From positions 1 to 34,085 of the forward strand of contig JAFGOQ010000221.1 of assembly GCA_016926405.1 (NCBI GenBank): a stretch of 34,085 bases of DNA. Reading direction: 5' to 3'. Both the position numbers and the translations under genes were made by a program. Position 1 is the first letter of the stretch. Each line of letters starts with the position of its first letter. Of this stretch, positions 6,551 through 34,070 are shown piece after piece. Below the pieces are notes generated by a model that did no database searches, was not told where the DNA came from, and saw only the letters and a list, made by a program, of their open reading frames with translations. The stretch is from Bacteroidales bacterium. GTDB lineage: Bacteria > Bacteroidota > Bacteroidia > Bacteroidales > UBA6680.

Positions 6551-7840
6551 TTATCGCTTGTCGACAAAAGTAATAGGTTTGCGACTCATTTCCGGAAACT
6601 GTCGTTTGTAAATTTCGCTAATACTGTCGAATTTTACTGTTGGTGCAACACGCAGCTTGGCTCTAAAATGGTCTTTAATTTTCTTTTCGAATTGCTCCGA
6701 GGTGTTTTTACTTCCTATGTGAATTAAAATATCGTCGGTGCCAATGTTGTTTGTCGAAACCTCTACAATGTAATTCTCAATCTCTTCAAAATCGTTAAGT
6801 AAATCGTATAACGATGGTGGATAAAGGGTTGTTCCTTTATATTTTATCATCTGTTTTTTGCGGCCAATAACCGGTCCTAAGCGCATAGTGTTTCTGCCAC
6901 ATTCACACTTTTCGGTATAGTGATAACAAATGTCGCCCGTTTTAAAACGTAACAGTGGCATTGCCTCAACACCAATAGTTGTTATTGTAACCTCGCCAGG
7001 TTCGCCTTCGGCAACAGGCATGTCGTTATCGTCTAAAAATTCAACAATAATCATCTCGGGATGATGGTGCCCGCCTTTGCCCTGTCCGCATTCGGTAAAG
7101 GCCGTTCCCATTTCGGTAGAGGCGTATGTTGAGTATAGTTTAATATCCCACTTCTCGCGAATTTTCTGCCCTAAAGTGTTAAGTTCAAGGTTTGCATTTC
7201 GCATCGACTCGCCAATACAGATAGCCTTTTTAATAGAGCTGTTTTTATAATCGATGCCATTTTTCTCGGCATAATCAATTAGCTTAAGCAAAAACGAAGG
7301 AACGGTAATAAAGGCGTTTGGTTTAATTCGTTCAATGGTATCAAACTGTAATCCTGGGTTACCTGGACCCACGCGAACAATACCTCCGCCAAGTTTTCTT
7401 ATGCCTGCGTAATATGCCATTCCTGCCATAAATCGTCTGTCCATAGTTACCATAAGCTGGTAAATATCGTCGTTTGTTCCGTCGGCACAAGCAAACGATA
7501 TGTACTCGTTGTAAGCTAATCGTTCGATGTCTTTGTCGGTTAAGGCAAAAGTTACAGGATCGCCCAAAGTACCCGATGTTGTTGTATAGTCTACAACTTT
7601 ACCTTTGTCAACACATAAAAAGTCCATATTGCGTGCTTGCAAATCGTCTTTTGTGGTTGTTGGTATCTTTGTTAAATCTTCGAGAGTTTTAATATCGCGA
7701 GTATTGATATTGTGTTTCTCGAAAAGGTTTTGATAAAACTTCGAGTGATTTTTAAGGTAAACCAATAGTTCCGAAAGCCTATCTTCCTGATAAGCTTTTA
7801 TATCTTTTGTTGACTGAGTCTCTATTTCGGGTATAAACAT
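6551..7840 (-). CDS. AMP-binding enzyme, phenylacetate-CoA ligase/PaaK-like
   Basis: 429 aa; 'TTTSGTLGDPVTFALTDKD', 'YSTYASTEMGTAFTECGQGKGGHHHPEMIIVE', 'RFKTGDICYHYTEKCECGRNTMRLGPVIGRKKQMIKYKGTTLYP'. Confidence 0.85.
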   Translation of the reverse strand: MFIPEIETQSTKDIKAYQEDRLSELLVYLKNHSKFYQNLFEKHNINTRDIKTLEDLTKIPTTTKDDLQARNMDFLCVDKGKVVDYTTTSGTLGDPVTFALTDKDIERLAYNEYISFACADGTNDDIYQLMVTMDRRFMAGMAYYAGIRKLGGGIVRVGPGNPGLQFDTIERIKPNAFITVPSFLLKLIDYAEKNGIDYKNSSIKKAICIGESMRNANLELNTLGQKIREKWDIKLYSTYASTEMGTAFTECGQGKGGHHHPEMIIVEFLDDNDMPVAEGEPGEVTITTIGVEAMPLLRFKTGDICYHYTEKCECGRNTMRLGPVIGRKKQMIKYKGTTLYPPSLYDLLNDFEEIENYIVEVSTNNIGTDDILIHIGSKNTSEQFEKKIKDHFRAKLRVAPTVKFDSISEIYKRQFPEMSRKPITFVDKR

Positions 7841-12080: not shown

Positions 12081-12773
12081 TTAAACAATAATCAACTTCT
12101 CCCATTCGCCAGTTTGGTTGGGGTTTATATTAATATCGGGAACTCTTATTAATGGCGACTCCGAGAAATATTTCGAAAGATAATTTGAAAATATATTGTA
12201 TGAATCTTCGGCAATAAATTTATCTTTTGCAGGGTACTCGTTATAAACTAGTGCTGCAAGTTTAATGTTGTTGTTTCGCATATATTCAAGGCTCAGAAGA
12301 GTATGATTTACACTTCCTAAACGCGACGAGGTTACAAGTATTACAGGTAGGTGATAATCTTTAATAAAATCGGCCGATGTGTAATTTCCGGTAAGAGGTA
12401 CTATCAGTCCTCCTGCTCCCTCGAGTAAAATAACATCGTAGTTTGGAGTAAGATTAAAAACTGTATCGGCAATTTTTTTTGTGTCAATAATTTTGTTTTC
12501 AAGGCGTGCAGAGAGATGTGGCGAACAAGGATGGTTAAAAAGATATGGGCATGTTTGACCCGCTTTATCTTCGGGCAAAAGCTCAATACCAGCAATTCGT
12601 CGATGTTCAATAATATCGTCCGAAATATTTTGGCAGCCTGTTTGAGCTGCTTTTACTGTTATTGCTTTTATGTTTTTTGATAGTAGATATTTATAAAAAA
12701 GCCCTGTAACAATTGTTTTCCCAGCATCGGTATCGATACCGCTAATGAAATATATTTGAGTAAATTTTTGCAT
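12081..12773 (-). CDS. bioD: dethiobiotin synthase
   Basis: 'YFISGIDTDAGKTIVTG' P-loop, 'LLEGAGGLIVPL'. Start set at the internal Met (MQKFTQ), removing most of the overlap with bioC. Confidence 0.93.
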   Translation of the reverse strand: MQKFTQIYFISGIDTDAGKTIVTGLFYKYLLSKNIKAITVKAAQTGCQNISDDIIEHRRIAGIELLPEDKAGQTCPYLFNHPCSPHLSARLENKIIDTKKIADTVFNLTPNYDVILLEGAGGLIVPLTGNYTSADFIKDYHLPVILVTSSRLGSVNHTLLSLEYMRNNNIKLAALVYNEYPAKDKFIAEDSYNIFSNYLSKYFSESPLIRVPDININPNQTGEWEKLIIV

Positions 12774-12783
12774 GATTTTATTG

Positions 12784-13536
12784 TTATTTCTTTTTTGCAA
12801 CAATGTAAATTGGGTTGTAGGTTAATGAAAAGCCCTTATTTGAGTGAAACAATTTTCTATATTCTTTTTCGAAATTATTAAAATCAGAAGGAGTCCATTT
12901 CTCTCGTGAAATGGCATTTGTACCTGTGTTTTTCATGTGTTTAAGTACCTCCAGAGGTGAATTAAAATATAGAGTGATATTTTCCGACTCAAGTAATAAT
13001 ATTTCGAATTTATCTTCTATTGAATTTTTTATCTGCTCAACCGATGGATATTGAATTCCTGAACCTGTAATAGAACTAATTTCAGTAAAATTATGGGCTC
13101 CGTATGTGTTGTAAATAAGCAGTCCATTTTCTGTTAAGGCATTACTTGCCTTAATTGCAAACATTGGCAAATCGGTAAGCCATTGTAATGCCGACCCCGA
13201 TATTATTAAGTTGTTATTTGAAGGGAAGTCGATAGTTTCAATATCGCCCATAGCAAAGCTATGATTAGCTTTAAAATTGTTAAAACAACCTTTTGATTCG
13301 AAAACAAGATCGTTAAAAACAAATTCTGATGATGAGAATTTAGCTTCTAATAACCTCGATAGAATGCCTGTTCCACAGCCAATTTCGAATATCTTTTTTG
13401 GTTCAAAAGAGGGCGGAATAAGCTGAATTAATTTATTGTTAATTATAGTTTGTGCCGTAGCGTGTGAATTATATGTATTAAGACTTTTGCGAAATCGTTC
13501 GCAAATAAGTTGTTTGTTAATTAGTTGATTAATCAT
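12784..13536 (-). CDS. bioC: malonyl-ACP O-methyltransferase
   Basis: SAM motif 'KKIFEIGCGTGILSRLLEAKF', 'ISGSALQWLTDLPMFAIKAS', and location between bioG and bioD. Confidence 0.88.
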   Translation of the reverse strand: MINQLINKQLICERFRKSLNTYNSHATAQTIINNKLIQLIPPSFEPKKIFEIGCGTGILSRLLEAKFSSSEFVFNDLVFESKGCFNNFKANHSFAMGDIETIDFPSNNNLIISGSALQWLTDLPMFAIKASNALTENGLLIYNTYGAHNFTEISSITGSGIQYPSVEQIKNSIEDKFEILLLESENITLYFNSPLEVLKHMKNTGTNAISREKWTPSDFNNFEKEYRKLFHSNKGFSLTYNPIYIVAKKK

Positions 13537-14192
13537 TATAATAATGTTCCAATATTAATTGTGTTGAAAGGAAAATGAGCTCCTTTAATTTCAGTTATAA
13601 CAGTATTGTTTTCTGTTTGCCAATATCTTTTCTGATTTTCAGCCGAAAAAATAAGATCGTCGTTTGTAATTATTGCACAGTCGAAAATATTCTCGGCTTT
13701 TGTGCTTTTGTTAATGCTATCAAACAAAAATTGGAGCTCCTTTTTTTGATCTTCCCAACAGCCAGTGGCAAGATATCTTTCTATTTCGCTCAGCATACGG
13801 CTTCCTCCTGCAATTCGAGTATTGAATTTTTTTAGGTTTCGCTCGTTTAGGTTTGTTAATGTCCCTTCAAAAACAGCTTTTGGAATGCCAAAGTTATCGC
13901 TTATTGGATTTAAAGTTCCGTTTATTGCAATAGCCTTATCTATTTTTATATTCAATTTTTTTACGATAAAAGGTGCTACCCAAACTCCCAGCGACCAAGC
14001 AACAACAGTTATGTTTTTGTAATCTTTTTCAATTTTAACATCATCAGTATTAAAATTTGAGTATCGATACAGTATCAATTTATCGTAATTTGGAACATCT
14101 AAAATAGGTAGCATCTTTTCGTCGAAGCCCCAACCATTAAAAAATATTAGCAGGTTTTTATTGGTGCTATCTTTTATATACTTATTGTTCAT
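13536..14192 (-). CDS. bioG: DUF452/BioG-type pimeloyl-ACP methyl ester esterase
   Basis: 218 aa; 'LLIFFNGWGFDEKML' and 'VVAWSLGVWVAPFIV' (nucleophile-elbow-like). Overlaps bioF and bioC ends in the operon. Confidence 0.82.
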   Translation of the reverse strand: MNNKYIKDSTNKNLLIFFNGWGFDEKMLPILDVPNYDKLILYRYSNFNTDDVKIEKDYKNITVVAWSLGVWVAPFIVKKLNIKIDKAIAINGTLNPISDNFGIPKAVFEGTLTNLNERNLKKFNTRIAGGSRMLSEIERYLATGCWEDQKKELQFLFDSINKSTKAENIFDCAIITNDDLIFSAENQKRYWQTENNTVITEIKGAHFPFNTINIGTLL

Positions 14193-15339
14193 TAATAATT
14201 GTTGAGGTTTGATTTATCGATACAGGAAGTGTTCCGATAATTGAACTTACTTTATTAATATCTTCAGTAGTTAATGTAGCTGAAAGCGAGAAGCGTATTC
14301 TTGCGGTTCCCTGTGGAACAGTTGGGTAACGAACAGGACGTGCATCAATATGATTGTTTTTAAAAATTTCGTACCACTGCAAAGCAAGTGAGTTATCGAA
14401 AGCCATAAACGGAACAATTGCAGATTCACCAAGAGTCTTAAAGCCGTTGTTTGTTATAGCAGAACGTAAATTAGATGATATACTTTTCAGGTATTCGCGC
14501 TCATGATTCATTGACTGCACTTTATTCATAACAAAGCGAGACCACGCAAAATTAATTGGTGCTAGAGCTGTTGTAAAAATAAATGAGCGCATTCTGTTTA
14601 TCAGAAATTCTTTAACCACGCTATGGCAAATTACAAAAGCTCCTACCGAAGCAATTGCTTTTCCAAGAGTCCCTATAATAATATCTACATCATCCATTAT
14701 TCCTAATTCTTGACAAAGACCAAGACCTGTTTCGCCATATAGCCCAAGGCTGTGTGCTTCGTCAACAATTAGAAAAGCACCATATTTATTTTTTATATCG
14801 ACAATCTCTTTAAGTGGAGCCATATCGCCATCCATACTGTAAATAGATTCTACAGCAATAATAATATTATCGAATTTTCCTTTAAACTTTTCGATAATGC
14901 GAATAAGGTGATTAACGTCGTTATGTTTAAAGCGTTCAAAATGTGCATCAGATAATCTAATTCCATCAATGGTGCTAGCATGAATCATCTTATCGGCAAT
15001 AATAAGGTCTGTCTTTGTTGTTATTGCAGGAAGAAGACCACAGTTTGCATGGTATCCACTATTAAATGCTAGTGCTGGTCGATTATACATGCGTTCTAAA
15101 TCACTCTCAAACATTACACTTTGAGAATGATCGCCAGCAAGTAGTCGCGACGAATAAGAACCAAATCCGATTTTTGATTTGGTTAACTCAAGAAACTCTT
15201 CACGTAAATTTTGGTTTGTAGCAATGCCTAAGTAATCGTTACCCGACATATTAATAAAGAACGGATCGGTGTTAACGGCGTAGCGATAACAATTATCGGT
15301 CTTTATTTGCTCAATCTGGTTTTTAAGTCTTTCTAACAT
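14182..15339 (-). CDS. bioF: 8-amino-7-oxononanoate synthase
   Basis: 'MSGNDYLGIATNQNLREEF', 'LIVDEAHSLGLYGETGLGLCQELG', 'DIIIGTLGKAIASVGAF'. Confidence 0.92.
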   Translation of the reverse strand: MLERLKNQIEQIKTDNCYRYAVNTDPFFINMSGNDYLGIATNQNLREEFLELTKSKIGFGSYSSRLLAGDHSQSVMFESDLERMYNRPALAFNSGYHANCGLLPAITTKTDLIIADKMIHASTIDGIRLSDAHFERFKHNDVNHLIRIIEKFKGKFDNIIIAVESIYSMDGDMAPLKEIVDIKNKYGAFLIVDEAHSLGLYGETGLGLCQELGIMDDVDIIIGTLGKAIASVGAFVICHSVVKEFLINRMRSFIFTTALAPINFAWSRFVMNKVQSMNHEREYLKSISSNLRSAITNNGFKTLGESAIVPFMAFDNSLALQWYEIFKNNHIDARPVRYPTVPQGTARIRFSLSATLTTEDINKVSSIIGTLPVSINQTSTIINEQ

Positions 15340-15342
15340 AAT

Positions 15343-16623
15343 CTATAAGTTAGTTAAAACTTTGACCATTTTCTCTGTTAAAACAGAAATTTCTTTATCT
15401 GTTATAATAAAAGGAGGCATTGTGTATACCATTCTTCCAAATGGACGAATCCAAATACCCTCTTTTACAAACATCGGCTGAATAGTTTTCATATCAACAG
15501 CCTCGTGCATTTCAATAACTCCAATAGCACCTAGTACTCTAACGCTTTTTACCGATGCTAATTTCTTAGCCCTTTCTAGCCCTGCAATTAGTTGTTTTTC
15601 GATGTTTTTAACACGTTTTTGCCATTCTGTTTCTAGCAAAAGGTTGATGCTAGCAACTGCCACAGCACAAGCTAGAGGGTTTCCCATAAATGTTGGTCCG
15701 TGCATAAAAACACCTGGCTCTGCCGATGATATAGTGTTTGCTATATCGTCGGTGCACATTGTAGTAGCAAAACTCATATAGCCACCAGTAATGGCTTTAC
15801 CAAGACACAGAATATCGGGAACAATATTGGTATGGTTCATTGCGAAAAGTTCGCCTGTACGACCAAAGCCTGTTGCTATCTCGTCGAATATTAATAGTAT
15901 ATTATGCTTTTTACAACATGCCGATAGTTTGTTTAGATATTCGGGATGATAAAACCACATTCCACCAGCGCCCTGAACAATAGGCTCAAGAATAACCGCT
16001 GCAATTTTATCTCCTTTTGCCTCAATTACCGATTCCATTTCAAAGAAATCTGAGTCGTCCCATTGCTCATTAAAAGCCACTTGGGGTTGCGAAACGAAGT
16101 TTTGAATTGATAAGCGTTTGTTAAATATTGAGTGCATTCCATTAACAGGATCGCATACCGACATTGCATGCCAAGTATCGCCGTGATACCCATTTTTTAT
16201 TGTCAGGAATTCATTTTTAGACGACTCGCCTTTAGCATGCCAATACTGAAGAGCCATTTTCATAGCAACCTCAACTGCAACCGATCCCGAATCGCAATAG
16301 AAGACTTTTGTGAACTCTTCAGGTGTTATTTTCACAAGTAATTTTGCCAATTCAACAGCAGGTTGATGTGTTAATCCACCGAACATAATGTGCGACATTT
16401 TCTCGGTTTGCTTTTGTATGGCATTGTTTAATACAGGGTGGTTATAACCATGCACAGCAGCCCACCACGAAGACATTCCGTCGATAAGCTCACGTCCATC
16501 GTTTAATCGTATGTTACAACCTGTTGCACTCTCAACATGAAAAACCTCTAATGGATTTGTTGCCGATGTGTATGGATGCCAAATGTGTTGTTTGTCGAAG
16601 TCTAATAATTCCTTGTGGGTCAT
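15343..16623 (-). CDS. bioA: adenosylmethionine-8-amino-7-oxononanoate aminotransferase
   Basis: 'HIWHPYTSATNP', 'ELIDGMSSWWAAVHGYNHP', 'ILLIFDEIATGFGRTGELFAMNH', 'CLGKAITGGYMSFATTMCT'. Start set at the internal Met (MTHKELLDFDKQ). Confidence 0.94.
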   Translation of the reverse strand: MTHKELLDFDKQHIWHPYTSATNPLEVFHVESATGCNIRLNDGRELIDGMSSWWAAVHGYNHPVLNNAIQKQTEKMSHIMFGGLTHQPAVELAKLLVKITPEEFTKVFYCDSGSVAVEVAMKMALQYWHAKGESSKNEFLTIKNGYHGDTWHAMSVCDPVNGMHSIFNKRLSIQNFVSQPQVAFNEQWDDSDFFEMESVIEAKGDKIAAVILEPIVQGAGGMWFYHPEYLNKLSACCKKHNILLIFDEIATGFGRTGELFAMNHTNIVPDILCLGKAITGGYMSFATTMCTDDIANTISSAEPGVFMHGPTFMGNPLACAVAVASINLLLETEWQKRVKNIEKQLIAGLERAKKLASVKSVRVLGAIGVIEMHEAVDMKTIQPMFVKEGIWIRPFGRMVYTMPPFIITDKEISVLTEKMVKVLTNL

Positions 16624-16685
16624 ATTGTATTTATGTATTGATTGTAGAGACAAAGCGAGCCTTGTCTCTACTGTAAAAAAATCTG

Positions 16686-17654
16686 TTATTTATTTTTTTC
16701 AAGAGAGAATCCTGCAGCTTCAAATTTTTTAAAATCAGTTTTTACATCCGACCCTATTGTTGTAAGAAGATCGCCAACTAAAGCCGAATTAATACCAGCT
16801 TGCATTGCCTTATCTTCAATGTGTTTAATAATATTTCGTCCACCAGCAAATCGAAGGTTGGCATCGGGATTAATAAAGCGAAACAGAGCAATTGTAGTAA
16901 GAACTTCGTCGTCGGTAAGAGGTGTTGTTCCTTCCATTGGTGTTCCTTCAATAGGATTTAATATGTTTAAAGGAATTGATTTAACACCTATTTGTTTTAG
17001 TTCAAAAGCCATTTCTATTCGCTGTTCCATTGTTTCGCCCATGCCCATAATTCCACCCGAGCAAACTTTTAAACCAACTTCTTGTGCCATCTTAATTGTT
17101 TCTACTTTTTCGTCGTAGGTGTGGGTAGAACAAAGATTTGGAAAGAAAGAGCGAGCAGTTTCTAAATTACAGTGATAGTGTTCAACACCTCTGTCTTTAA
17201 GTTTTTGGAGTTGATCGCGATTAAGAAGCCCCATTGAAGCACACATGTGAAGTTTTGTATTGCTACGTATGTCATCATAAACTTTTAGCAATTTATCTAA
17301 TCGCATATTGTCTAAAGCTCTACCACTTGTTACTAAGCTAAATCGGTTTACTCCGTAATTATCGTTTTGTTTAGCAACTTCTAATGCTTCTTTAGAGCTT
17401 ATCACATCGTAAACTTCTATGTTAGTATTATGATGGACTGATTGCGAACACCACTTGCAATTTTCGGAACATTTTCCCGATCGAGCATTTAAAATAGAGC
17501 AGGTGTCGAACTTTTTACCAGCAAAGGTATCGCGTATTTCGCCGGCCGATTTATAAAGTAGCTCTTTATCTTGGCTTTTATATAGTTCTATAGCTTCGTC
17601 GAACGATATCTGGTTACCCTTTAATATGTTTTCTTTAATAGATAGTATTGACAT
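16686..17654 (-). CDS. bioB: biotin synthase (radical SAM)
   Basis: 'ILNARSGKCSENCKWCSQSVHHNT' CxxxCxxC cluster, 'CSGGIMGMGETMEQRIEMAFEL', 'RFAGGRNI'. Confidence 0.95.
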   Translation of the reverse strand: MSILSIKENILKGNQISFDEAIELYKSQDKELLYKSAGEIRDTFAGKKFDTCSILNARSGKCSENCKWCSQSVHHNTNIEVYDVISSKEALEVAKQNDNYGVNRFSLVTSGRALDNMRLDKLLKVYDDIRSNTKLHMCASMGLLNRDQLQKLKDRGVEHYHCNLETARSFFPNLCSTHTYDEKVETIKMAQEVGLKVCSGGIMGMGETMEQRIEMAFELKQIGVKSIPLNILNPIEGTPMEGTTPLTDDEVLTTIALFRFINPDANLRFAGGRNIIKHIEDKAMQAGINSALVGDLLTTIGSDVKTDFKKFEAAGFSLEKNK

Positions 17655-23463: not shown

Positions 23464-23632
23464 AATTGTAAATAGATATAGTTACTTTAATAGTATAAAT
23501 TTTGAAAGGGGTAAAAATAGAATGCTTTTTTTGTAAAAAAATAGCATTTTGTTTTTTTAACAATAAATAATTGTGTGAATTTGAGTTACTATATTGAATA
23601 TATATTAGTTACTTTTGAAAAAAATAAATCTA

Positions 23633-24769
23633 ATGGCAGGTATTTATATTCATATTCCTTTTTGTAAACAGAAATGTTATTACTGTGACTTTTTCTCGGT
23701 TGTGGGATTTAAAGAGAAAGGCAATTTTGTTAAGTCGTTACTAAAAGAGATTGATATTCAAAAGAATTATCTTGGTAATGCTTCTGTTGATACTATTTAT
23801 TTTGGTGGAGGAACACCTTCGTCGTTAGATATTGAAGAGGTAAAAGTTATTCTCGATAAGTTATACTCTACATTTAATATTAGCAGTGATGCAGAAATTA
23901 CCTTTGAGGCTAATCCCGAAGATTTAGAGTACGGCTATCTGCCCGATTTAAAAGAACTTGGAATAAACAGATTAAGTATAGGTATTCAGTCGTTTAACGA
24001 CGACGATTTGCTTTTTATGAATCGTAAGCACTCTAGTGAGCAAGCCATAAAAAGTGTTGAGCGAGCAATAAAAGCAGGCTTTACAAATATAAGTATCGAC
24101 CTTATTTACGGTTTTCCTAATCTTGATTTAGAGCGTTGGAAATCTAATTTAGAAATAGCTTTAAGTTTGCCTGTAACTCATATATCGGCATATCATTTAA
24201 CAATAGAAGAACGTACAGTTTTTTCGCACTATCTAAAAAAAGGTATTATTACCGAGATGGACGAAGAGGATAGTGTTGAGCAATTTAGTTTGCTTATCGA
24301 GATGGCCGAGAAATCGGGTTTTATTCAATACGAAACTTCTAATTTTGCCAAAGACAATATGATTTCGAAACACAATTCAAACTATTGGAAACAGGTACCT
24401 TACCTTGGTCTTGGTCCTTCGGCTCACTCGTATAATGGAGAAAGCCGTCAGTGGAATGTGTCGCTTGTGAATAAATACATTGATGGAATAGAGGCCAATA
24501 ATCCAGAATTTGAAAAGGAGATTATTGACGATAATATGGCTTACAACGAATATATTTTAACGTCGCTCAGAACAATGTGGGGCATCGATTTAGAATATGT
24601 AAAGGAAAGATTCTCAGCTGATAAATATAATTTTCTTTTAAGCGAAATTGAGAATCAAATAGAACTAAAACATCTTAAGTTAACAGATAATAAAGCTGTT
24701 TTAACAAAGAAAGGTCTTTTTGTTTCCGATGCTATTATGTCTGATTTAATGATAATAGTAGAAGAGTAG
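23633..24769 (+). CDS. hemW: HemW-like radical SAM protein (coproporphyrinogen III oxidase-like)
   Basis: 'AGIYIHIPFCKQKCYYCDFFSV', 'DTIYFGGGTPSSL', 'RLSIGIQSFNDDDLLFMNRKHSSEQA'. ATG 23633 preferred; the track start at 23615 is TTG overlapping a TACTTTTG promoter-like element. Confidence 0.92.
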   Translation: MAGIYIHIPFCKQKCYYCDFFSVVGFKEKGNFVKSLLKEIDIQKNYLGNASVDTIYFGGGTPSSLDIEEVKVILDKLYSTFNISSDAEITFEANPEDLEYGYLPDLKELGINRLSIGIQSFNDDDLLFMNRKHSSEQAIKSVERAIKAGFTNISIDLIYGFPNLDLERWKSNLEIALSLPVTHISAYHLTIEERTVFSHYLKKGIITEMDEEDSVEQFSLLIEMAEKSGFIQYETSNFAKDNMISKHNSNYWKQVPYLGLGPSAHSYNGESRQWNVSLVNKYIDGIEANNPEFEKEIIDDNMAYNEYILTSLRTMWGIDLEYVKERFSADKYNFLLSEIENQIELKHLKLTDNKAVLTKKGLFVSDAIMSDLMIIVEE

Positions 24770-24807
24770 GTTTTAATAATTAACATTTTGTTACTTTCGT
24801 AGCAATT

Positions 24808-25983
24808 ATGGATAGTAAAGATCAAATTAAAAATAAGTTTAACGAGCTTAATTGTTGCGTTATTGTGCCTACTTACAATAATGCATCTGTTATATCTCCT
24901 GTTTTAACAAAGTTAAAATCGTATACAAATAATATAATTGTTGTAAACGATGGCTCTACCGATAATACCCTTTCGGTATTGGCTAATTGTGGAGTGCAGA
25001 TTGTTTCGTATGCTAAAAACCGCGGAAAAGGAATAGCATTACAACAGGGTTTTTCGTATGCCATTAGTAAGGGTTTTAAATATGCTATTACTATTGATAG
25101 CGATGGCCAGCATAATCCCGACGATTTAATTTTATTTTTAAATAAAATTGAAGAAGGAAGTAGAGCAATTATTCTTGGAGCACGAAATATGGAGCAGGAG
25201 GGCGTTCCTGCTAAGAGTAGCTTTGGTAATAAATTTTCTAATTTTTGGTTTTGGTTTGAGACAGGTTATAAAGTTCCCGACACCCAAACAGGGTACAGAT
25301 GTTACCCTCTGAAATATGTTGCTAACAAAAAGTACTTTACTAATAAGTACGAATTTGAGATAGAGGTAATGGTGCGAGGTGTTTGGAGCGGATTGTCAAT
25401 AGAATCGGTTCCTGTTAGTGTATACTATGCTCCTAAAGAGGAGCGTATATCGCATTTCCGCCCTTTCAAAGATTTTACTCGGATAAGTATACTTAATACA
25501 TTTCTGGTTTTTATACTGCTTCTTTATATTAAGCCTCGAAATCTTTATAGATTAATTAGACGAAAGAGTTTTAAAGATTTTTTAAAAGAAAATGTTCTGC
25601 AATCAACCGATAGTAATGTAAAAATGGCACTATCGGTAACACTCGGAATATTTATGGGTATTGCACCAGTATGGGGCTGGCAAATGATGATTGCTCTGTT
25701 TTTTGCACATGTTTTAAAGTTAAACAAAGCGGTTACTCTTATTGCTTCTAATATAAGCTTACCACCAGTAATTCCTTTTTTGCTATACTTTAGTTATGTT
25801 ACAGGTGGTTATATTCTTGGAACAGGCAAAACAACTCTTTCGCTAAGTAATATTTCGTTTGAAAAAGTTTATACCGATTTATTTCAGTATCTGGTTGGAT
25901 CGCTGGCTTTTGGAGCTATGTTGGCTGTGGTAGTTGGAGCTATTTCGTTTTTGTTGTTGAAAATATTTAGGAGAGGTTTTTAG
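24808..25983 (+). CDS. GT2 (polyprenyl-phosphate mannosyltransferase-like) glycosyltransferase fused to a DUF2062-like membrane domain
   Basis: 'CVIVPTYNNASVISPVLTKLKSYTNNIIVVNDGSTDNT', 'TIDSDGQHNPDDL'. C-terminal 'KMALSVTLGIFMGIAPVWGWQMMIALFFAHVLKLNKAVTLIASNISLPP'. Confidence 0.9.
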   Translation: MDSKDQIKNKFNELNCCVIVPTYNNASVISPVLTKLKSYTNNIIVVNDGSTDNTLSVLANCGVQIVSYAKNRGKGIALQQGFSYAISKGFKYAITIDSDGQHNPDDLILFLNKIEEGSRAIILGARNMEQEGVPAKSSFGNKFSNFWFWFETGYKVPDTQTGYRCYPLKYVANKKYFTNKYEFEIEVMVRGVWSGLSIESVPVSVYYAPKEERISHFRPFKDFTRISILNTFLVFILLLYIKPRNLYRLIRRKSFKDFLKENVLQSTDSNVKMALSVTLGIFMGIAPVWGWQMMIALFFAHVLKLNKAVTLIASNISLPPVIPFLLYFSYVTGGYILGTGKTTLSLSNISFEKVYTDLFQYLVGSLAFGAMLAVVVGAISFLLLKIFRRGF

Positions 25984-25985
25984 GG

Positions 25986-28900
25986 ATGAGTGATATTTTT
26001 CATAGACTGTTCTTGCTATTTAGCAGGCATAAAATTATTTATTGGCTAGTAATTCTTTTTACAGTATTTGTATCGGCGCTGTTTGCATCGAAACTAAAAT
26101 TTGTTGAAGATATTACTCAAATACTACCAAAAGGTCCAGAAACAGCACAGCTTAAGCATATTCTAAATAACTCGGAGTTAACCGATAGGCTAATATTTCA
26201 TATTTATTCTGACGACGAAAATCAGATTGATAAAATTGTTGCTACTGCCGATTCGGCTCAAAAACTAATTACAAATCAGGTTCCAGATACTTTAGTAAAA
26301 GATCTCTTTTTTAAAGTTGATCAATCAAATATCAATAATCTTTACAATTTGGTCTATAATAATCTTCCTCTTTTTTTAGAAGATGACGATTATACTAAAA
26401 TTGATTCGGAATTAAACTCGCAACATATTGCAAACACACTAAGAGCTCATTATAAAAATTTAATGTCGCCTGCTTCGTTTGCTTTAAAGAAGTACATAGT
26501 TAAAGACCCATTGAGTCTTACCCCCATTGTATTAAAAAAACTGCAGGGTGTTCAGTTCGACGATAATTTTACTCTTAATAAAGGATGGATTATTACTAAA
26601 GACAAAAAGCATCTTTTGTTTTTTATCCAACCTCGATATTCAGCAAGCGAGACATCAAAAAACACAAAGCTTGTTAATAAACTAGAGGAGATATCGAGCA
26701 CACTAAATAAATTAAATAGTAATGTTACTACCGAATATTATGGTTCGGCTGTTGTGGCTGTTGGTAATGCAAACCGCATAAAGTGGGATATTATTTTAAC
26801 TGTTAACATAGCAATGGCTTTGTTGCTTATAGTTATTGCGGTAGTTTTTAAACGTAAATCGGCTTTTTTCATAATATTTATTCCTGTGTTAATGGGTGGC
26901 TTGCTATCTGTGGCAGCTCTGTTTCTTATTAAAACAACAGTTTCGGCTGTGGCACTGGGAATAGGTTCTGTTCTTTTAGGAATAAGTATCGACTATTCGT
27001 TGCATATATTTTCGCACGCACGAAATGGAGCTTCGGTAAAGCAGCTGTATAAAGATTTAGTTTTCCCTGTATTGCTGAGTAGTTTTACTACTGCATCGGC
27101 TTTTTTGTGTCTTTTCATAATTAAATCGGATGTGTTAAACGACCTTGGTATGTTTGCCGCTATAAGTGTTGTTTCGGCAGCTTTGTTTGCTTTAATATTT
27201 ATTCCACCACTGATTTATAATGGAAAAAAGAAACAAGATAAAGCCGAATCGATAAAAACACCAATAGTTGATAAAATAACACAATACCCTCTACATAAAA
27301 ACAAGTGGTTGGTAAGTGCTGTTCTGCTTTTTACTGTTGTGATGTTCTTTACTGGCAAGGGCGTTACTTTCGACGACAATATGGATAAGATGAATTATCA
27401 GTCGGAGAAATTAACCAACACAGAAAAGAGCATAAGTGGAATTACTAGCGAATCGAAAAAAGCAGTTTTTGTTTTTGTTGAGGGTAAGAATAGACAAGAG
27501 GCTTTCAAGAAGAACGAAATCTTGGTTAGCAAACTCGAAAAGCTAAAAGCCGACTCTATAATATCCAGATATCGTACTGTTAGTTCGCTCTTGCTATCAG
27601 ACTCGTTGGCAAAAATAAAAATAGATAAATGGAATAACTTCTGGCACAACGGTAGAGCTGAAAAGCTTGAGCAAATGCTTATTGCCGAAGGAAAAGAGAT
27701 AGGTTTTAAAGAGAGTTCTTTTAAGGGGTTTTACAAGTTTGTAAATAGAGATTTTAACAATTTATCTGAACAAGACTATTTGGCATTTGAGAGTCTTTTT
27801 TATAAAGGATTTATTTCGGAGAAAGAGAGTAACTGTTCGGTGATGAATCTTATTAATGTAGCAGCCGAAAATCGTTCGTTAGTATATAAAGAGCTTAATA
27901 AGGAGAAAGGTGTTTCGATACTTGATAAGCAGTATATTACAAACTCTTTAGTTTCGCATCTTAATACTGATTTTGATAAACTTATTTTACTATCCACTCT
28001 TGTTATTTTTGTAATTCTTTTAGTCTATTATGGTAGAATAGAGTTAGCCTTAATAACAATAATACCAATGATTATATCTTGGATTTGGGCTATTGGATTA
28101 ATGGGCGTTTTTGGTATTTCGTTCAATATTTTTAATGTAATAATATCGACTTTCATTTTTGGTTTAGGAATAGACTATAGCATATTTATTATGCAAGGAA
28201 TGTTGCTACAATATAAATTTGGTGGCGACGATAATATGCCTTCATATAAACTCTCTATTTTACTTTCTGGTATAACTACTGTATTAGCAATAGGGGTTTT
28301 AATATTTGCAAAACATCCAGCATTAAAATCAATTGCAACAATGAGCATTGTTGGTATTTGCTCTGTTGTATTAGTTACCTATACAATTCAGCCTATTCTT
28401 TTTAATTGGTTGGTGAAAAAGGGTGGTAACGAACAGGAGAATCCACGTAATATAATAAACACAATATTTACACTTCATGCAGCCTTTTCTTTTTTGTCGC
28501 AATCGATAATAATTATTGGGTTTATTCCTGTTTTGTATATATTGCCTATACGCAAAAAATATAAAAAGCAATTTTTCCATTGGCTTGTATGTATAATGAG
28601 TAAGATCTCTGTCTACTCTTATTTTTATGTCCGTAAAGATATTGTGAACCCTTTTAATGAACGCTTTAAAGAACCTGCGGTTATAATCTCGAACCATCAG
28701 AGTCATATTGATTTAGTGTTGTTGTTAATGCTAAATCCAAAAATTATTATGCTAACCAAAGATTGGGTTTGGAACAACATTATTTTTGGTCCAATAGTGC
28801 GTTATGCCGATTTTATCTCTATCGATCAGGGTGTCGATAAATCAATAGAGAAGATTAAAGCTAAGATTGATCAGGGATTCTCTATTCTTGTCTTCCCCGA

Positions 28901-29834
28901 AGGAACTCGTAGTAAAACGGGTAAAATACGTCGTTTTCATAATGGAGCGTTTATGCTTGCCGATAAACTTAACCTACCTGTTTTGCCAATTATATTACAG
29001 GGTGCCGACCATGTTATGCGCAAGCAACAAAAAAACTTACAGGTAGCTAAATATATTACTATTAAACTTTTCGAGCGTAAAAATCCAAAAGATCTTGGCG
29101 ATAGTTATAAAGATCAGGCTAAGGCTTTTACAGAGTTTTATCGCAACGAGTTTAAAGCATTATCAAAAACCGAGCAGGCACCAAAATATTACCGTCGTGT
29201 TTTAACAGGTAAGTACATGTATAAAAGTCCTGTATTGGAATGGTACATGAAGGTTAAAATGTCGCTTGAAAACAACTATAAATATTTTAACAGTATAATT
29301 CCAGACAACGCTCGTGTTACCGATATTGGATGTGGTTATGGTTTCTTATCGCATATGCTTAAGCTAATGTCTGATGAGCGTACAATTCTGGGAATTGATT
29401 ACGATGCCGATAAGATTGCTGTGGCATCAAATATTTATCCTTCAGATAAAAACATAACATTTAAGGCTGGTGATATAAATACTATTATTATTCCCGAAAG
29501 CGATGTGTTTATTATGCTTGATGTTTTACATTATATGCCCGAAGAGTTGCAGAATAGTGTAATTGATAGATGTTGCAAGGTCTTAAGTAACGATGGATTG
29601 ATAATAATAAGAGACGCCAATAAAAATTTACAAAAGCGACATAGAGGAACTAAACTTACCGAACTTTTTTCAACAAAAAGTGGGTTTAATAAAACAGGTT
29701 ATGGAGAGCTTACTTTTGTGTCGTCTGAATTAATAGAGGATGCTGCTAAGCGTAATAACTGTTCTTTGCAAGTGGTTGATAGTACTAAGCTAACCTCTAA
29801 TATTGTTTATTTATTGAGAAGGAATAATATATAA
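25986..29834 (+). CDS. MMPL/RND-type lipid exporter fused to PlsC-type acyltransferase and SAM-dependent methyltransferase
   Basis: 1282 aa. Two MMPL-like halves ('GIGSVLLGISIDYSLHIFSHARNG', 'FIFGLGIDYSIFIMQGML'); PlsC motifs 'NHQSHID' and 'FPEGTRSKTGKIRRFHNGAFMLA'; methyltransferase motif 'VTDIGCGYGFLSHML'. Confidence 0.93.
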   Translation: MSDIFHRLFLLFSRHKIIYWLVILFTVFVSALFASKLKFVEDITQILPKGPETAQLKHILNNSELTDRLIFHIYSDDENQIDKIVATADSAQKLITNQVPDTLVKDLFFKVDQSNINNLYNLVYNNLPLFLEDDDYTKIDSELNSQHIANTLRAHYKNLMSPASFALKKYIVKDPLSLTPIVLKKLQGVQFDDNFTLNKGWIITKDKKHLLFFIQPRYSASETSKNTKLVNKLEEISSTLNKLNSNVTTEYYGSAVVAVGNANRIKWDIILTVNIAMALLLIVIAVVFKRKSAFFIIFIPVLMGGLLSVAALFLIKTTVSAVALGIGSVLLGISIDYSLHIFSHARNGASVKQLYKDLVFPVLLSSFTTASAFLCLFIIKSDVLNDLGMFAAISVVSAALFALIFIPPLIYNGKKKQDKAESIKTPIVDKITQYPLHKNKWLVSAVLLFTVVMFFTGKGVTFDDNMDKMNYQSEKLTNTEKSISGITSESKKAVFVFVEGKNRQEAFKKNEILVSKLEKLKADSIISRYRTVSSLLLSDSLAKIKIDKWNNFWHNGRAEKLEQMLIAEGKEIGFKESSFKGFYKFVNRDFNNLSEQDYLAFESLFYKGFISEKESNCSVMNLINVAAENRSLVYKELNKEKGVSILDKQYITNSLVSHLNTDFDKLILLSTLVIFVILLVYYGRIELALITIIPMIISWIWAIGLMGVFGISFNIFNVIISTFIFGLGIDYSIFIMQGMLLQYKFGGDDNMPSYKLSILLSGITTVLAIGVLIFAKHPALKSIATMSIVGICSVVLVTYTIQPILFNWLVKKGGNEQENPRNIINTIFTLHAAFSFLSQSIIIIGFIPVLYILPIRKKYKKQFFHWLVCIMSKISVYSYFYVRKDIVNPFNERFKEPAVIISNHQSHIDLVLLLMLNPKIIMLTKDWVWNNIIFGPIVRYADFISIDQGVDKSIEKIKAKIDQGFSILVFPEGTRSKTGKIRRFHNGAFMLADKLNLPVLPIILQGADHVMRKQQKNLQVAKYITIKLFERKNPKDLGDSYKDQAKAFTEFYRNEFKALSKTEQAPKYYRRVLTGKYMYKSPVLEWYMKVKMSLENNYKYFNSIIPDNARVTDIGCGYGFLSHMLKLMSDERTILGIDYDADKIAVASNIYPSDKNITFKAGDINTIIIPESDVFIMLDVLHYMPEELQNSVIDRCCKVLSNDGLIIIRDANKNLQKRHRGTKLTELFSTKSGFNKTGYGELTFVSSELIEDAAKRNNCSLQVVDSTKLTSNIVYLLRRNNI

Positions 29835-31327
29835 TGACAAAATACGATATAGCAGTTATAGGTAGTGGAATAGGTGGATTGTCGTCGGCAGCTATTATGG
29901 CTAAGCAAGGTTTTAAGGTTGTTGTTATTGAAAAGCAGAAAATTCCTGGTGGCTATCTTCAATCGTTTACACGTTTTAAAAAGAATTTCGATACAGGATT
30001 GCACTATATTGGTAGCATGGGGCAAGGCCAGTTTATGGATAAGATTTTTAATTATCTAGGAATAAACGATAGAGTAGATTTCGCTGAATTCGATAATGAT
30101 GCTTTCGACATAATTTATTTTAATAATAAAACATTTGAGCTTCCTATTGGTCTCGAAAATTTTAAAAAAGCCTTAATAAATTATTTTCCTAGTGAAGAGT
30201 CAGCAATAATAAAGTACATTGATTTAATCAACGAGATTGTCGATTCGCTTCATGTTTTTAATCTAAGAGTTGTTCCCGACGAATACGATTTTCATAACCA
30301 ATGGGCTTCTGAATCGGCATATAAGGTAATTTGTGGTCTTACAAGCAATGTTGAGTTACAGAATATATTGTCGTCGGCTAATATTCTATATGCTGGTACA
30401 AAGGAGTGCACATCGTTTTATACACATGCAATTATTCAGTATACCAATATTCAGGGATGCAAAAGACCTATTGATGGTGGTAATAATCTTGTAAATGCTT
30501 TTATCGATATTATTAAGGAGAATGGAGGCAAAGTTATTTGTGGTAATGGATTAAAGAGTTTTAATATTATTGATAACAATATTGAATCAATTAATCTTGA
30601 TGATGATCAAAGAGTAATAGCCGATAATTATATATCAACTATTCATCCTCAGCAGCTTGTTAAAAATATTGGGACACCTTATTTTCGTAAGGCTTATATA
30701 AATAGGATAAATAGTATTAAAAATACAATGTCGTCGTTTGTTATTTACTGTACCTTAAAACCAGGAACGATAAAGTACTCAAACCAAAACCATTTTTGCT
30801 TTACAGGTAACGATGTTTGGGTTGCCTCTAATTACAGAACTGATAAGGCTCCCGACTATTTTTATCTGCTTACACCTGCTCATACTATTAACGATAAGTT
30901 TTCGGAGAAATTAGAGATAGTTACACTTATGGACTATTCTGTTTTTGATGAATTTATTGAGAATGGTATTGTAATAGACAGGAAAGGATACAATAAACTT
31001 AAGCAGGAAAAGGCCGACGAATTATTATCTATAGCTGCAAAATATTTCCCCGATCATATTTCCGCTATCGATAAAATAAATATAGCAACACCACATACTT
31101 TTCAGCGATATTCTGATACTGTTAAAGGATCATCGTATGGTATGGTAAAAGATTATAAAAAAGCCGAATCGGTTTATTTTAATCCGCGAACGCGAATACC
31201 AAATCTGTTTCTAGCAGGTTCAAATATCAATACACACGGAATTGTTGGGTCTGCTATAACTTCGGTATTAACTTGTGGAAAAATTGTAGGGCTTAATAAA
31301 CTTATTAATGAAATAAATAATGGCTAA
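29834..31327 (+). CDS. CrtI/retinol-saturase-like NAD(P)/FAD-dependent oxidoreductase
   Basis: 'YDIAVIGSGIGGLSSAAIMAKQGFKVVVIEKQKIPGGYLQSF', 'FDTGLHYIGSMGQG', C-terminal 'LFLAGSNINTHGIVGSAITSVLTCGKIVG'. One-base overlap with the preceding CDS. Confidence 0.88.
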   Translation: MTKYDIAVIGSGIGGLSSAAIMAKQGFKVVVIEKQKIPGGYLQSFTRFKKNFDTGLHYIGSMGQGQFMDKIFNYLGINDRVDFAEFDNDAFDIIYFNNKTFELPIGLENFKKALINYFPSEESAIIKYIDLINEIVDSLHVFNLRVVPDEYDFHNQWASESAYKVICGLTSNVELQNILSSANILYAGTKECTSFYTHAIIQYTNIQGCKRPIDGGNNLVNAFIDIIKENGGKVICGNGLKSFNIIDNNIESINLDDDQRVIADNYISTIHPQQLVKNIGTPYFRKAYINRINSIKNTMSSFVIYCTLKPGTIKYSNQNHFCFTGNDVWVASNYRTDKAPDYFYLLTPAHTINDKFSEKLEIVTLMDYSVFDEFIENGIVIDRKGYNKLKQEKADELLSIAAKYFPDHISAIDKINIATPHTFQRYSDTVKGSSYGMVKDYKKAESVYFNPRTRIPNLFLAGSNINTHGIVGSAITSVLTCGKIVGLNKLINEINNG

Positions 31328-32987
31328 AAAACACTCTTTTAAAGGTTTAAAGCGTTTTTTTATAATTACGGTATTACTAATTACAACTTTTGTAATTTAT
31401 TATAAGATAGATGTAAAGATGACTCCACCTCCTTTTGTCAAAACGGAGTTATTGGATATTAAAATAGATAAGGATTCGGCTATCTATAGCTATAATAATA
31501 ATTGGCTATTACAGAATAAGTTTGGTTTATGGGAACTTATGATATCTGGCGATGCCGAGGAACTAGGAGCTATAAATGGAGCTCTTACACAAGAGTTGGC
31601 AGCATATCAGGAAGAGGCTTTTGTTGATAGGCTAAAAGAGATGATTCCTTCGGAATCGTACATTAATTCGCTAAAATATTTTACATCGTGGTTTAATCGC
31701 GATATGGACGAGTATATCCCTCAAGAGTATTTGGTTGAGATATTCGCAGTGTCGCAATACGCTTCACACGATTTCGACTTTATAGGTGATAATTACGACA
31801 GAATTTTAAACTATCATGCTGCCCACGATATTGGTCATGCTCTTCAGAATTTAAATCTTGTTGCTTGTACTGGCTTTGCTGGATGGGATAGCTACTCAGC
31901 CGATTCGTCGCTTATTATTGGACGTAACTTTGATTTTTATGTTGGTGATAAGTTTGCCGAGAATAAAATTGTAGCTTTTTATAAGCCAAAAACGGGTAAT
32001 AATTTTATGCACATTACTTGGGGTGGACTTATCGGTACTGTTTCGGGAATGAATGATAAGGGACTAACAATAACATTAAATTCGGCTAAGAGTAATATTC
32101 CTATGTCGGCTCGCACACCAGTTTCTATTGTGGCTCGAACTATCTTACAATATGCTAGTAATATCGATGAAGCATACACAATTGCAAAATCATACAGAAC
32201 TTTTGTTACCGAGACTTTTTTAATAGGATCGGCTGCCGATGGTAAGGCTATGCTTATTGAGAAAACACCAGATACTACAATGCTTTTCGATTATAAGAAG
32301 GACTATATTGTTGCAACAAATCATCTTCAACATAAAGTTTTTGATAACGATGAGCTTAATATAGAGAACATAAATACAAGTGCATCGAAATATCGTTTTA
32401 ACCGCACCGAACAACTTCTTAACGAGAATAAAAAGCTGAATATTGAAAATGTAGCCAAAATACTGCGCGACAGAAAAGGTATCGATGACCAAAATATTGG
32501 AGTAAGCAACGAGAAGGCTATTAACCAAATGATAGCTCACCACTCTGTAATTTTTAAGCCCGAAGAGTTAAAGGTTTGGGTTTCTACTTCTCCATATCAA
32601 CTTGGCGAGTATGTTATGTACGACCTTAATGTGATGTTCTCTGATACTTTTAATGTGAAAGGTTATAACTCAAATATGCGTCAAACAATTGCTGCCGATA
32701 CTTTTTTGTTAAGTAAGGAGTATTCCGATTTTAAAAAATATAAGAGTTTGCACAAGTATATTTCAGAGTGTTTAAAAAGCAAGGTTAATGCAAATAAGGA
32801 TTCTCTAATAAGTTTCGAAACTCTTAATCCTATGTTCTTCGAAACATGGAAAATACTTGGTGAGTACTACAAGATGGTTGCTAATAACCAGAAGGCTACA
32901 CAATGTTTCAATAAGGCTCTATTATTAGAATTACCACGAACAGTAGATAAAGAGCGAATTGAAGAAGAATTAAATAGTCAAGAATAA
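31320..32987 (+). CDS. membrane-anchored C45-type (acyl-CoA:6-APA acyltransferase-like) Ntn hydrolase with TPR-like C terminus
   Basis: N-terminal TM segment. 'NLVACTGFAGWDSYSADSSLIIGRNFDFYVG' resembles the C45 autoproteolytic Cys and GRNFD segment; 'WGGLIGTVSGMNDKGLTITLNSA'. Confidence 0.82.
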   Translation: MAKKHSFKGLKRFFIITVLLITTFVIYYKIDVKMTPPPFVKTELLDIKIDKDSAIYSYNNNWLLQNKFGLWELMISGDAEELGAINGALTQELAAYQEEAFVDRLKEMIPSESYINSLKYFTSWFNRDMDEYIPQEYLVEIFAVSQYASHDFDFIGDNYDRILNYHAAHDIGHALQNLNLVACTGFAGWDSYSADSSLIIGRNFDFYVGDKFAENKIVAFYKPKTGNNFMHITWGGLIGTVSGMNDKGLTITLNSAKSNIPMSARTPVSIVARTILQYASNIDEAYTIAKSYRTFVTETFLIGSAADGKAMLIEKTPDTTMLFDYKKDYIVATNHLQHKVFDNDELNIENINTSASKYRFNRTEQLLNENKKLNIENVAKILRDRKGIDDQNIGVSNEKAINQMIAHHSVIFKPEELKVWVSTSPYQLGEYVMYDLNVMFSDTFNVKGYNSNMRQTIAADTFLLSKEYSDFKKYKSLHKYISECLKSKVNANKDSLISFETLNPMFFETWKILGEYYKMVANNQKATQCFNKALLLELPRTVDKERIEEELNSQE

Positions 32988-33019
32988 TTAAGACAAGATT
33001 AACAAGATTATATGATTGA

Positions 33020-33061
33020 CATGATTGTCTTTTTTTTCACTTGAGAAGAAAGACAATCATG
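33020..33061. terminator. Hairpin between convergent genes, possible bidirectional terminator
   Basis: catgattgtcttt (33020-33032) / aaagacaatcatg (33049-33061) with T run in the loop side; imperfect symmetry extends outward. Confidence 0.7.
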
Positions 33062-33080
33062 CTAATCCTGTTCATTTAGA

Positions 33081-34070
33081 TTACTGATTGTAGTACGAAG
33101 ATAGACGTCTACTAAACAGTTTTTTATTTACATCGTTTATCTGATCAACAAATTTACTTATTAGTGCTTCGCGCTGTTTTATATCGTAATTGGTTAGCTT
33201 ATTAAGATCGCTATAAACAATTTTATCTACGCAGTAGCCATATTGATCAAGCGACATTACAACAGCGGCGTTAATATCGTCGAATACAATAACCGACGGT
33301 AATTGCATTGCCGAATAGTTTACGGCTGCTTTAAGTACTGCCAGACCTATATATTCAATTTGTGTTTTCCCTAAATAGTATCCGCCCAATATAAGTCGAA
33401 CAATATCTATTCGAGCCTTCTTTTTAATATCTCTGTCTACTAAAGTTCTGTATTCTTTATCGTTGGTGTTAAGGAAATCGGAGATAAACAGATCTGGAAG
33501 TTTTTTAATATCTCCCAAGTTATCTTCTTTTTTACGAGCTTTATACTCCTTAATAGCAAGTTTTTGTGTTTCTGGAATGTAATATTTCCATTTACGAGTG
33601 CGTTTAAACGACTTAGTCATTGGGTTGGGCTTCCAGTTGCTTTTTGGTCGTTGCAGGTATGGAGCGTCAAGTCGTAAATAGTTTTTCTCCAGAGCAAACA
33701 AGGTACAGTTAATAAAATGACTCCACTCTCCGCTAATGCGCGAATGTACGGCATTCCACAGTGTTCTATTATCAACAGTAAGGTATTCTTTTACATCTTT
33801 CGATGAGTCGAGAACAAACTCCTGACCTTTAATTTTCTCAATAAGCTGATTTTTTAAACTTGCAGGGTAATATGTCTTGTCAAAATTTTCATCCGAAATG
33901 TTTGAGTGATAAAGCTCGTCTACCTTGAAAACGAAATTTTTGTCTTCGTTATTAGTCACACGAATAACAAATTTATCGTCCCAATTCATCGACTTAATAG
34001 GATCGTTTTGTTGCGCTTTTCCTGCAAAGAAACAACTCGCAAGAGTTGTCAGTAAAATCAGTTTCTTCAT
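33081..34070 (-). CDS. secreted hypothetical protein with signal peptide
   Basis: 329 aa; MKKLILLTTLASCFFAGKAQQ signal peptide. No family recognised confidently. Confidence 0.65.
   Translation of the reverse strand: MKKLILLTTLASCFFAGKAQQNDPIKSMNWDDKFVIRVTNNEDKNFVFKVDELYHSNISDENFDKTYYPASLKNQLIEKIKGQEFVLDSSKDVKEYLTVDNRTLWNAVHSRISGEWSHFINCTLFALEKNYLRLDAPYLQRPKSNWKPNPMTKSFKRTRKWKYYIPETQKLAIKEYKARKKEDNLGDIKKLPDLFISDFLNTNDKEYRTLVDRDIKKKARIDIVRLILGGYYLGKTQIEYIGLAVLKAAVNYSAMQLPSVIVFDDINAAVVMSLDQYGYCVDKIVYSDLNKLTNYDIKQREALISKFVDQINDVNKKLFSRRLSSYYNQ

Follow-up and report, generated by a model that had tools for sequence, protein, structure and literature searches.

Gene content and order of the quartet

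The question raised by four tightly packed genes at positions 24808-32987 of contig JAFGOQ010000221.1 (34,085 nucleotides, the whole of which is called the window here; assembly GCA_016926405.1 of a Bacteroidales bacterium, UBA6680) is whether they form an orphan, possibly undescribed, lipid module, as an earlier sequence-only reading had proposed, or belong to a known pathway. We conclude that the quartet is very probably the assembly and export segment (flxT-flxU-flxV-flxW) of a flexirubin-type aryl polyene pathway, which in this genus is split into chromosomal blocks.

The four open reading frames lie on the + strand, encode proteins of 391, 1282, 497 and 555 amino acids and follow each other closely, 2 bases separating the first two, while the second and third overlap by 1 base and the third and fourth by 8 bases; the coordinates, the close packing and the domain calls of the sequence-only reading were all confirmed, the last by Pfam and NCBIfam. 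The flxT-like gene (24808..25983) encodes a GT2 glycosyltransferase with a C-terminal DUF2062 membrane domain (PF00535, PF09835). The flxU-like gene (25986..29834) encodes, by Pfam, a fusion of an MMPL/RND exporter with a PlsC acyltransferase domain (about 28668-28997) and an S-adenosylmethionine-dependent (SAM) methyltransferase domain (about 29304-29636). The flxV-like gene (29834..31327) encodes a CrtI/CrtD-fold flavin adenine dinucleotide (FAD) oxidoreductase by Pfam/NCBIfam, with a GxGxxG motif near 29861 and the segment DTGLHYIG, noticed earlier, at residues 53-60 (29990-30013). The flxW-like gene (31320..32987) encodes a C45 N-terminal nucleophile (Ntn) acyltransferase/amidohydrolase with a predicted N-terminal membrane anchor and a C-terminal TPR-like tail.

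The identity of the quartet follows from homology and gene order. In order-level relatives it runs straight on from genes for a thioesterase, a ketosynthase, an acyl carrier protein (ACP), two ketosynthases, a deacetylase, LolA, a lipoprotein and a dehydratase, and among 80 named loci the contiguous order is also present in Bacteroidales, Marinilabiliaceae, Carboxylicivirga, Labilibaculum and many Chitinophaga. Locus L078 is from Chitinophaga filiformis DSM 527, and C. filiformis is the species in which flexirubin was discovered (PMC3992019). By Pfam, its order is ketosynthase (I), methyltransferase (J), FAD halogenase-like (K), ketosynthase-like (L), ACP (M), ketosynthase (N), ketosynthase (O), deacetylase (P), LolA (Q), lipoprotein (R), dehydratase (S), GT2 (T), MMPL-PlsC-methyltransferase (U), CrtI-like (V), C45 (W), AcpS (X) and FlxY (Y). 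This order fits the anchors given for C. pinensis in PMC3992019 (ketosynthases C, I, L, N and O; dehydratases F and S; ligase Y; P to U including a deacetylase, LolA, a glycosyltransferase and an exporter), and the four genes were therefore named flxT, flxU, flxV and flxW. The flexirubin clusters of C. filiformis and C. pinensis (flxA-flxY with dar) have the same four genes in the same order between the dehydratase and FlxY. The quartet is thus not an undescribed module: it occurs within contiguous flexirubin clusters, its region has been described as flxP-flxY (PMC3992019), and the set has already been assigned to a characterised pathway as a cluster, although not enzyme by enzyme.

Other flexirubin genes in the same genome

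The quartet is not contiguous with ketosynthase genes in its own genome. The window corresponds to contig C66 in a draft genome of 2.9 Mb (233 contigs, 92% complete), and a ketosynthase search of this genome gave five matches, three of them on contig C139 and one on C58; together these two contigs hold four ketosynthase genes, one further ketosynthase-like gene and two ACP genes. C139 carries a run of genes for a BtrH-like acyltransferase, an ABC ATPase, an ABC permease, a thioesterase, a ketosynthase, a ketosynthase-like protein, an ACP, two ketosynthases and a polysaccharide deacetylase, and C58 a run for a dehydratase, KASIII, a flavodoxin, an LpxL-type acyltransferase, an ACP, a ketosynthase, FabG and an ammonia-lyase. 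The ammonia-lyase is FlxA, the tyrosine ammonia-lyase of flexirubin biosynthesis (NF053541, 842 bits; cut-off 700), the KASIII protein is DarB, the dialkylresorcinol synthase (NF053539, 596 bits; cut-off 550), adjoined by a flavodoxin-like DarA candidate, and the BtrH-like protein of C139 is DarH by NCBIfam (471 bits; cut-off 300). FlxY, the acyl-CoA ligase of flexirubin biosynthesis (NF053551 FlxY_rubin, 722 bits; cut-off 520), is encoded in the window itself (6551..7840, - strand), 17 kb from the quartet, and shares 69% identity with the ligase encoded after the module in a relative. The statement of the sequence-only reading that no acyl-AMP ligase is visible next to the module thus holds for the immediate neighbours but not for the window, where FlxY had been overlooked. 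Because the same genome encodes FlxA, FlxY, DarB, DarH, ketosynthases and ACPs, the module is not an orphan, and the suggestion of a polyene made elsewhere is borne out.

Compared with the Chitinophaga cluster, this genome has at least three separate blocks, with FlxY beside a biotin operon, and lacks FlxJ or FlxK (halogenase) between the ketosynthases; no FlxJ (ring methyltransferase) was found anywhere in the draft. In two same-genus genomes (G001 and G002), a single contig carries the dar genes with an flx block ending in flxA, then a divergent biotin operon with FlxY, and then hemW and the quartet. The hemW-quartet lies about 45 kb from flxA, and the whole span is about 71 kb in G002; the block is seen from flxS on in G002, whereas the G001 contig begins inside it, at flxP. 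In this genus, therefore, the parts of the pathway lie apart but in a single chromosomal region. Contiguity of quartet and ketosynthase genes is usual but not obligatory, since split polyene clusters have precedent: according to PMC3949708, the arcuflavin arc/dar cluster of Azoarcus likewise lies in two unlinked parts, both essential for the pigment. It shares a glycosyltransferase, LolA, an acyltransferase, an exporter and a polysaccharide deacetylase with the flexirubin system but has a xanthomonadin-type starter, and no C45 or CrtI-like gene is among the arc genes listed there.

The biotin operon of the window (12081-17654, - strand) consists of bioB, bioA, a bioF-like gene, bioC and bioD, and its position between flxA and FlxY in the two same-genus genomes constitutes a conserved biotin-flexirubin neighbourhood.

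Distribution of the quartet and co-occurrence with flx genes

Across the phylum the order of the quartet (GT2, MMPL, one or more oxidoreductases, C45) is kept, being consecutive in 50 of about 98 FlxU-like neighbourhoods, far beyond chance. In 16 of the 50 intact cases there is no ketosynthase within about 10 kb, and this, with the separation seen in the present genus, would be expected of a module that had been recruited from the flexirubin cluster and now served, independently, a lipid other than an aryl polyene. Genome-wide searches and the co-occurrence data argue against it. True FlxA (53% identity or more) was found in 18 of 99 relatives, and a FlxU-like MMPL protein in 18/18 of these versus 5/81 others (Fisher P = 1.3e-15, which is indicative only, as related genomes are counted as independent); DarB was found in nine of the 99, all with FlxU. 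Genomes with separated modules or a lone FlxU keep the flx ketosynthase (FlxN; 28 of 29) and mostly FlxA too, where the 29 were selected mainly for separate FlxU-like genes or missing FlxA and include four comparison genomes; the MMPL protein of the sole exception (G080) is no more than a distant paralogue. As the genome under study also has FlxA, FlxY, DarB and ketosynthases, true orphan status was rejected, and we regard such an independent role as very unlikely.

FlxT and FlxU

FlxT is 45-68% identical to the GT2 proteins encoded directly upstream of FlxU in relatives, and 34% identical to the GT2 domain of Escherichia coli ApeJ. FlxU has full-length relatives with the same fusion (33-57% identity), and its MMPL part matches E. 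coli ApeM and its PlsC part ApeD. In E. coli, unattached polyene acids accumulate in apeD or apeJ mutants, and ApeM with the Lol-like ApeL and ApeN is the proposed export route (PMC8253772). Because ApeJ, ApeD and ApeM are their homologues, FlxT and FlxU are candidates for lipid anchor assembly and export, in line with the likeness to aryl polyene/flexirubin tailoring and export that had been noticed earlier and that homology and gene order bear out. The apeA-apeR cluster of E. coli CFT073 (PMC8253772) has a homologous GT2 protein, RND exporter, PlsC, LolA, thioesterase, dehydratase, ketosynthases and ACPs, but fuses domains otherwise (GT2 with acyltransferase, exporter separate) and has no homologue of FlxV, FlxW or FlxP and no ammonia-lyase match.

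FlxV

The AlphaFold2 model of FlxV (predicted local distance difference test score, pLDDT, 89.7) has a fold that resembles CrtD and phytoene desaturase, with CrtD (4rep) as the best match in the PDB (template modelling score, TM, 0.78), and for this reason its likeliest role, as judged from the model, is a redox reaction or an isomerisation acting on the polyene. Fold and sequence similarity to CrtI/CrtD could also indicate a module for tailoring and exporting a carotenoid or other isoprenoid, with the flavoenzyme acting on a carotenoid, and an isoprenoid substrate had been among the earlier suggestions. FlxV, however, falls far below the cut-off of every carotenoid equivalog in NCBIfam (best CrtD, 115 bits versus 549.7), and the genes in cis in relatives are aryl polyene genes; with nothing positive beyond the common fold, this substrate was rejected on scores and gene context and is in our judgement extremely improbable.

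FlxW and the methyltransferase fused to FlxU

FlxW is a member of the C45 autoproteolytic acyltransferase/hydrolase family by model score (NF040521, C45/AAT Ntn family, 211 bits; cut-off 85) and by its nucleophile: Cys183 (codon 31866-31868) is invariant across 24 aligned sequences, and the start of the beta subunit of N-acylethanolamine acid amidase (NAAA) aligns next to it. The best PDB matches of its AlphaFold2 model (pLDDT 89.7) are isopenicillin N acyltransferase, acid ceramidase and NAAA. FlxW has the fold and the nucleophile cysteine in common with these enzymes but shows only 12-19% identity to them, and differs in its additional N-terminal membrane anchor and C-terminal TPR-like tail. 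As a helix at residues 7-32 is preceded by a lysine-rich start, FlxW is probably membrane-anchored with its enzyme part in the periplasm.

C45 is present in exactly the 17 relatives whose FlxU has the methyltransferase domain (17/17) and in none of the six whose MMPL protein lacks it (0/6), three of which carry FlxA (G003, G005 and G036). It was also found in 22 of 24 further genomes, often apart from FlxU, the main reason for choosing these genomes being that FlxU had no C45 next to it. All nine DarB-positive relatives have FlxW, but eight C45 genomes among the relatives have no DarB match. Because of the 17/17 versus 0/6 distribution and these eight genomes, FlxW appears to track the fused methyltransferase rather than resorcinol synthesis, and a role specific to dialkylresorcinol is disfavoured. 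A tree built from the MMPL part groups five of the six proteins that lack the methyltransferase in one clade and places the sixth (G080) in a separate paralogue clade; since those closest to FlxU cluster, the pairing of C45 and methyltransferase may reflect a single evolutionary event (one gain or loss). The fused domain is disfavoured as a ring methylase, as Chitinophaga has a separate ApeB-like methyltransferase too (FlxJ position, 46% identical to E. coli ApeB), and a gene resembling the latter is present in Carboxylicivirga.

We found no study of the function of FlxV or FlxW in the literature. In 2014 it was proposed from the cluster context in C. pinensis that FlxV acts as a beta-keto reductase during chain building and FlxW as the ligase joining polyene and dialkylresorcinol (PMC3992019), which would agree with the presence of FlxW in every DarB-positive relative. 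FlxV, however, has the amine-oxidase/CrtI fold of an FAD protein and lies outside the ketoreductase families; FlxW is of Ntn type with a predicted membrane anchor and occurs where DarB was not matched; and a BtrH-type acyltransferase gene, called DarH by NCBIfam, accompanies the dar block. We therefore consider the 2014 assignments unlikely.

Two further groups of MMPL genes were seen. G003, G005, G020, G036 and G080 (loci L038, L037, L035, L034 and L030) have a second, separate clade of MMPL paralogues of about 820-1000 amino acids without methyltransferase. Lone MMPL-PlsC-methyltransferase genes stand in a conserved, unrelated-looking setting in L115 (6740-19313), L126 (3595-16765) and L134, where the neighbours, identified by eye, are peptidyl-tRNA hydrolase and pterin/folate-type genes; C45 is encoded elsewhere in the L115 and L126 genomes, the two that were tested.

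Proposed working of the pathway

Gene identities, their context and co-occurrence, the domain and fold assignments and the conserved nucleophile are shown by the analysis; the chemical steps of the flexirubin-type pathway that follow are all inferred. The aryl polyene acid would be built in the cytoplasm from tyrosine by FlxA, FlxY, ketosynthases and ACPs, whose genes lie elsewhere; the lipid anchor would be made, and the polyene attached to it, by FlxT together with the PlsC domain of FlxU; the MMPL domain of FlxU would carry the polyene lipid over the inner membrane, and LolA/LolB-like proteins would deliver it to the outer membrane.

Several points weigh against this reading. The letters flxT to flxW were set by gene order in C. 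filiformis, matched to the anchors published for C. pinensis (PMC3992019). The draft, 92% complete, yielded no flxQ (LolA), and flxR (lipoprotein) and flxS (dehydratase) were not seen, no separate search being made for them; C139 stops 57 bases past the flxP deacetylase gene (L006, 13720-13777), where flxQ, flxR and flxS would follow, so that an assembly gap is the likely reason for the missing flxQ, and the flxQ/flxR/flxS set is present in G002. The late steps are guesses: FlxV may oxidise, desaturate or isomerise the polyene, its substrate being conjectural; FlxW, as an inner-membrane protein directed towards the periplasm, may remodel an ester or amide bond in the lipid after its export; the methyltransferase domain of FlxU is not the known ring-methylating enzyme and probably acts in the same late step as FlxW; and the order of action is equally conjectural.

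A more specific proposal, which we put forward tentatively and to which we give a rather low probability, is that FlxV, FlxW and the fused methyltransferase perform a late step specific to Bacteroidota and independent of dialkylresorcinol, (re)linking the aryl polyene to an amino lipid at the periplasmic face, where the FlxP deacetylase would free the amine and FlxW would make or cut the amide. If this were true, an undescribed aryl polyene aminolipid would be the product of many "flexirubin" clusters that lack dar genes.

Transcription unit and neighbouring genes

Directly 3' of the flxW stop codon lies a long AT-rich hairpin between convergent genes (33013..33068, no strand assigned), a probable bidirectional terminator as judged from sequence and RNA fold (-28.8 kcal/mol, z = -6.0; 0/200 shuffles as stable). 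Because this very stable hairpin follows the last gene, the quartet is likely to be one transcript that ends there. Scans for promoters and terminators did not exceed the number of sites in shuffled sequences; the flxW 3' hairpin is significant on its own. The quartet may be transcribed from a promoter of its own, independently of hemW (23615..24769, + strand; TIGR00539), which ends 38 bases upstream and is a conserved neighbour in the genus (also in G001 and G002) but not itself a pathway member. By eye, a Bacteroidota-type promoter-like stretch (TAnnTTTG-like) is visible at 24780-24808, about 10 bases 5' of the first start codon. The gene at 33081-34070 (- strand) encodes an unknown protein with no match in Pfam or NCBIfam, and its same-genus homologue (58%) is encoded between FlxY and hemW, not after flxW.

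Significance

The result is for the most part unremarkable, adding a new member, in split form, to a kind of system already known, and it removes a false "new pathway", as the split cluster seemed an orphan only because the window held one block. The published guesses for FlxV and FlxW (ketoreductase, resorcinol ligase) do not fit their families or distribution well; that FlxW is paired with the methyltransferase fused to FlxU offers a testable lead in a widespread pigment family.

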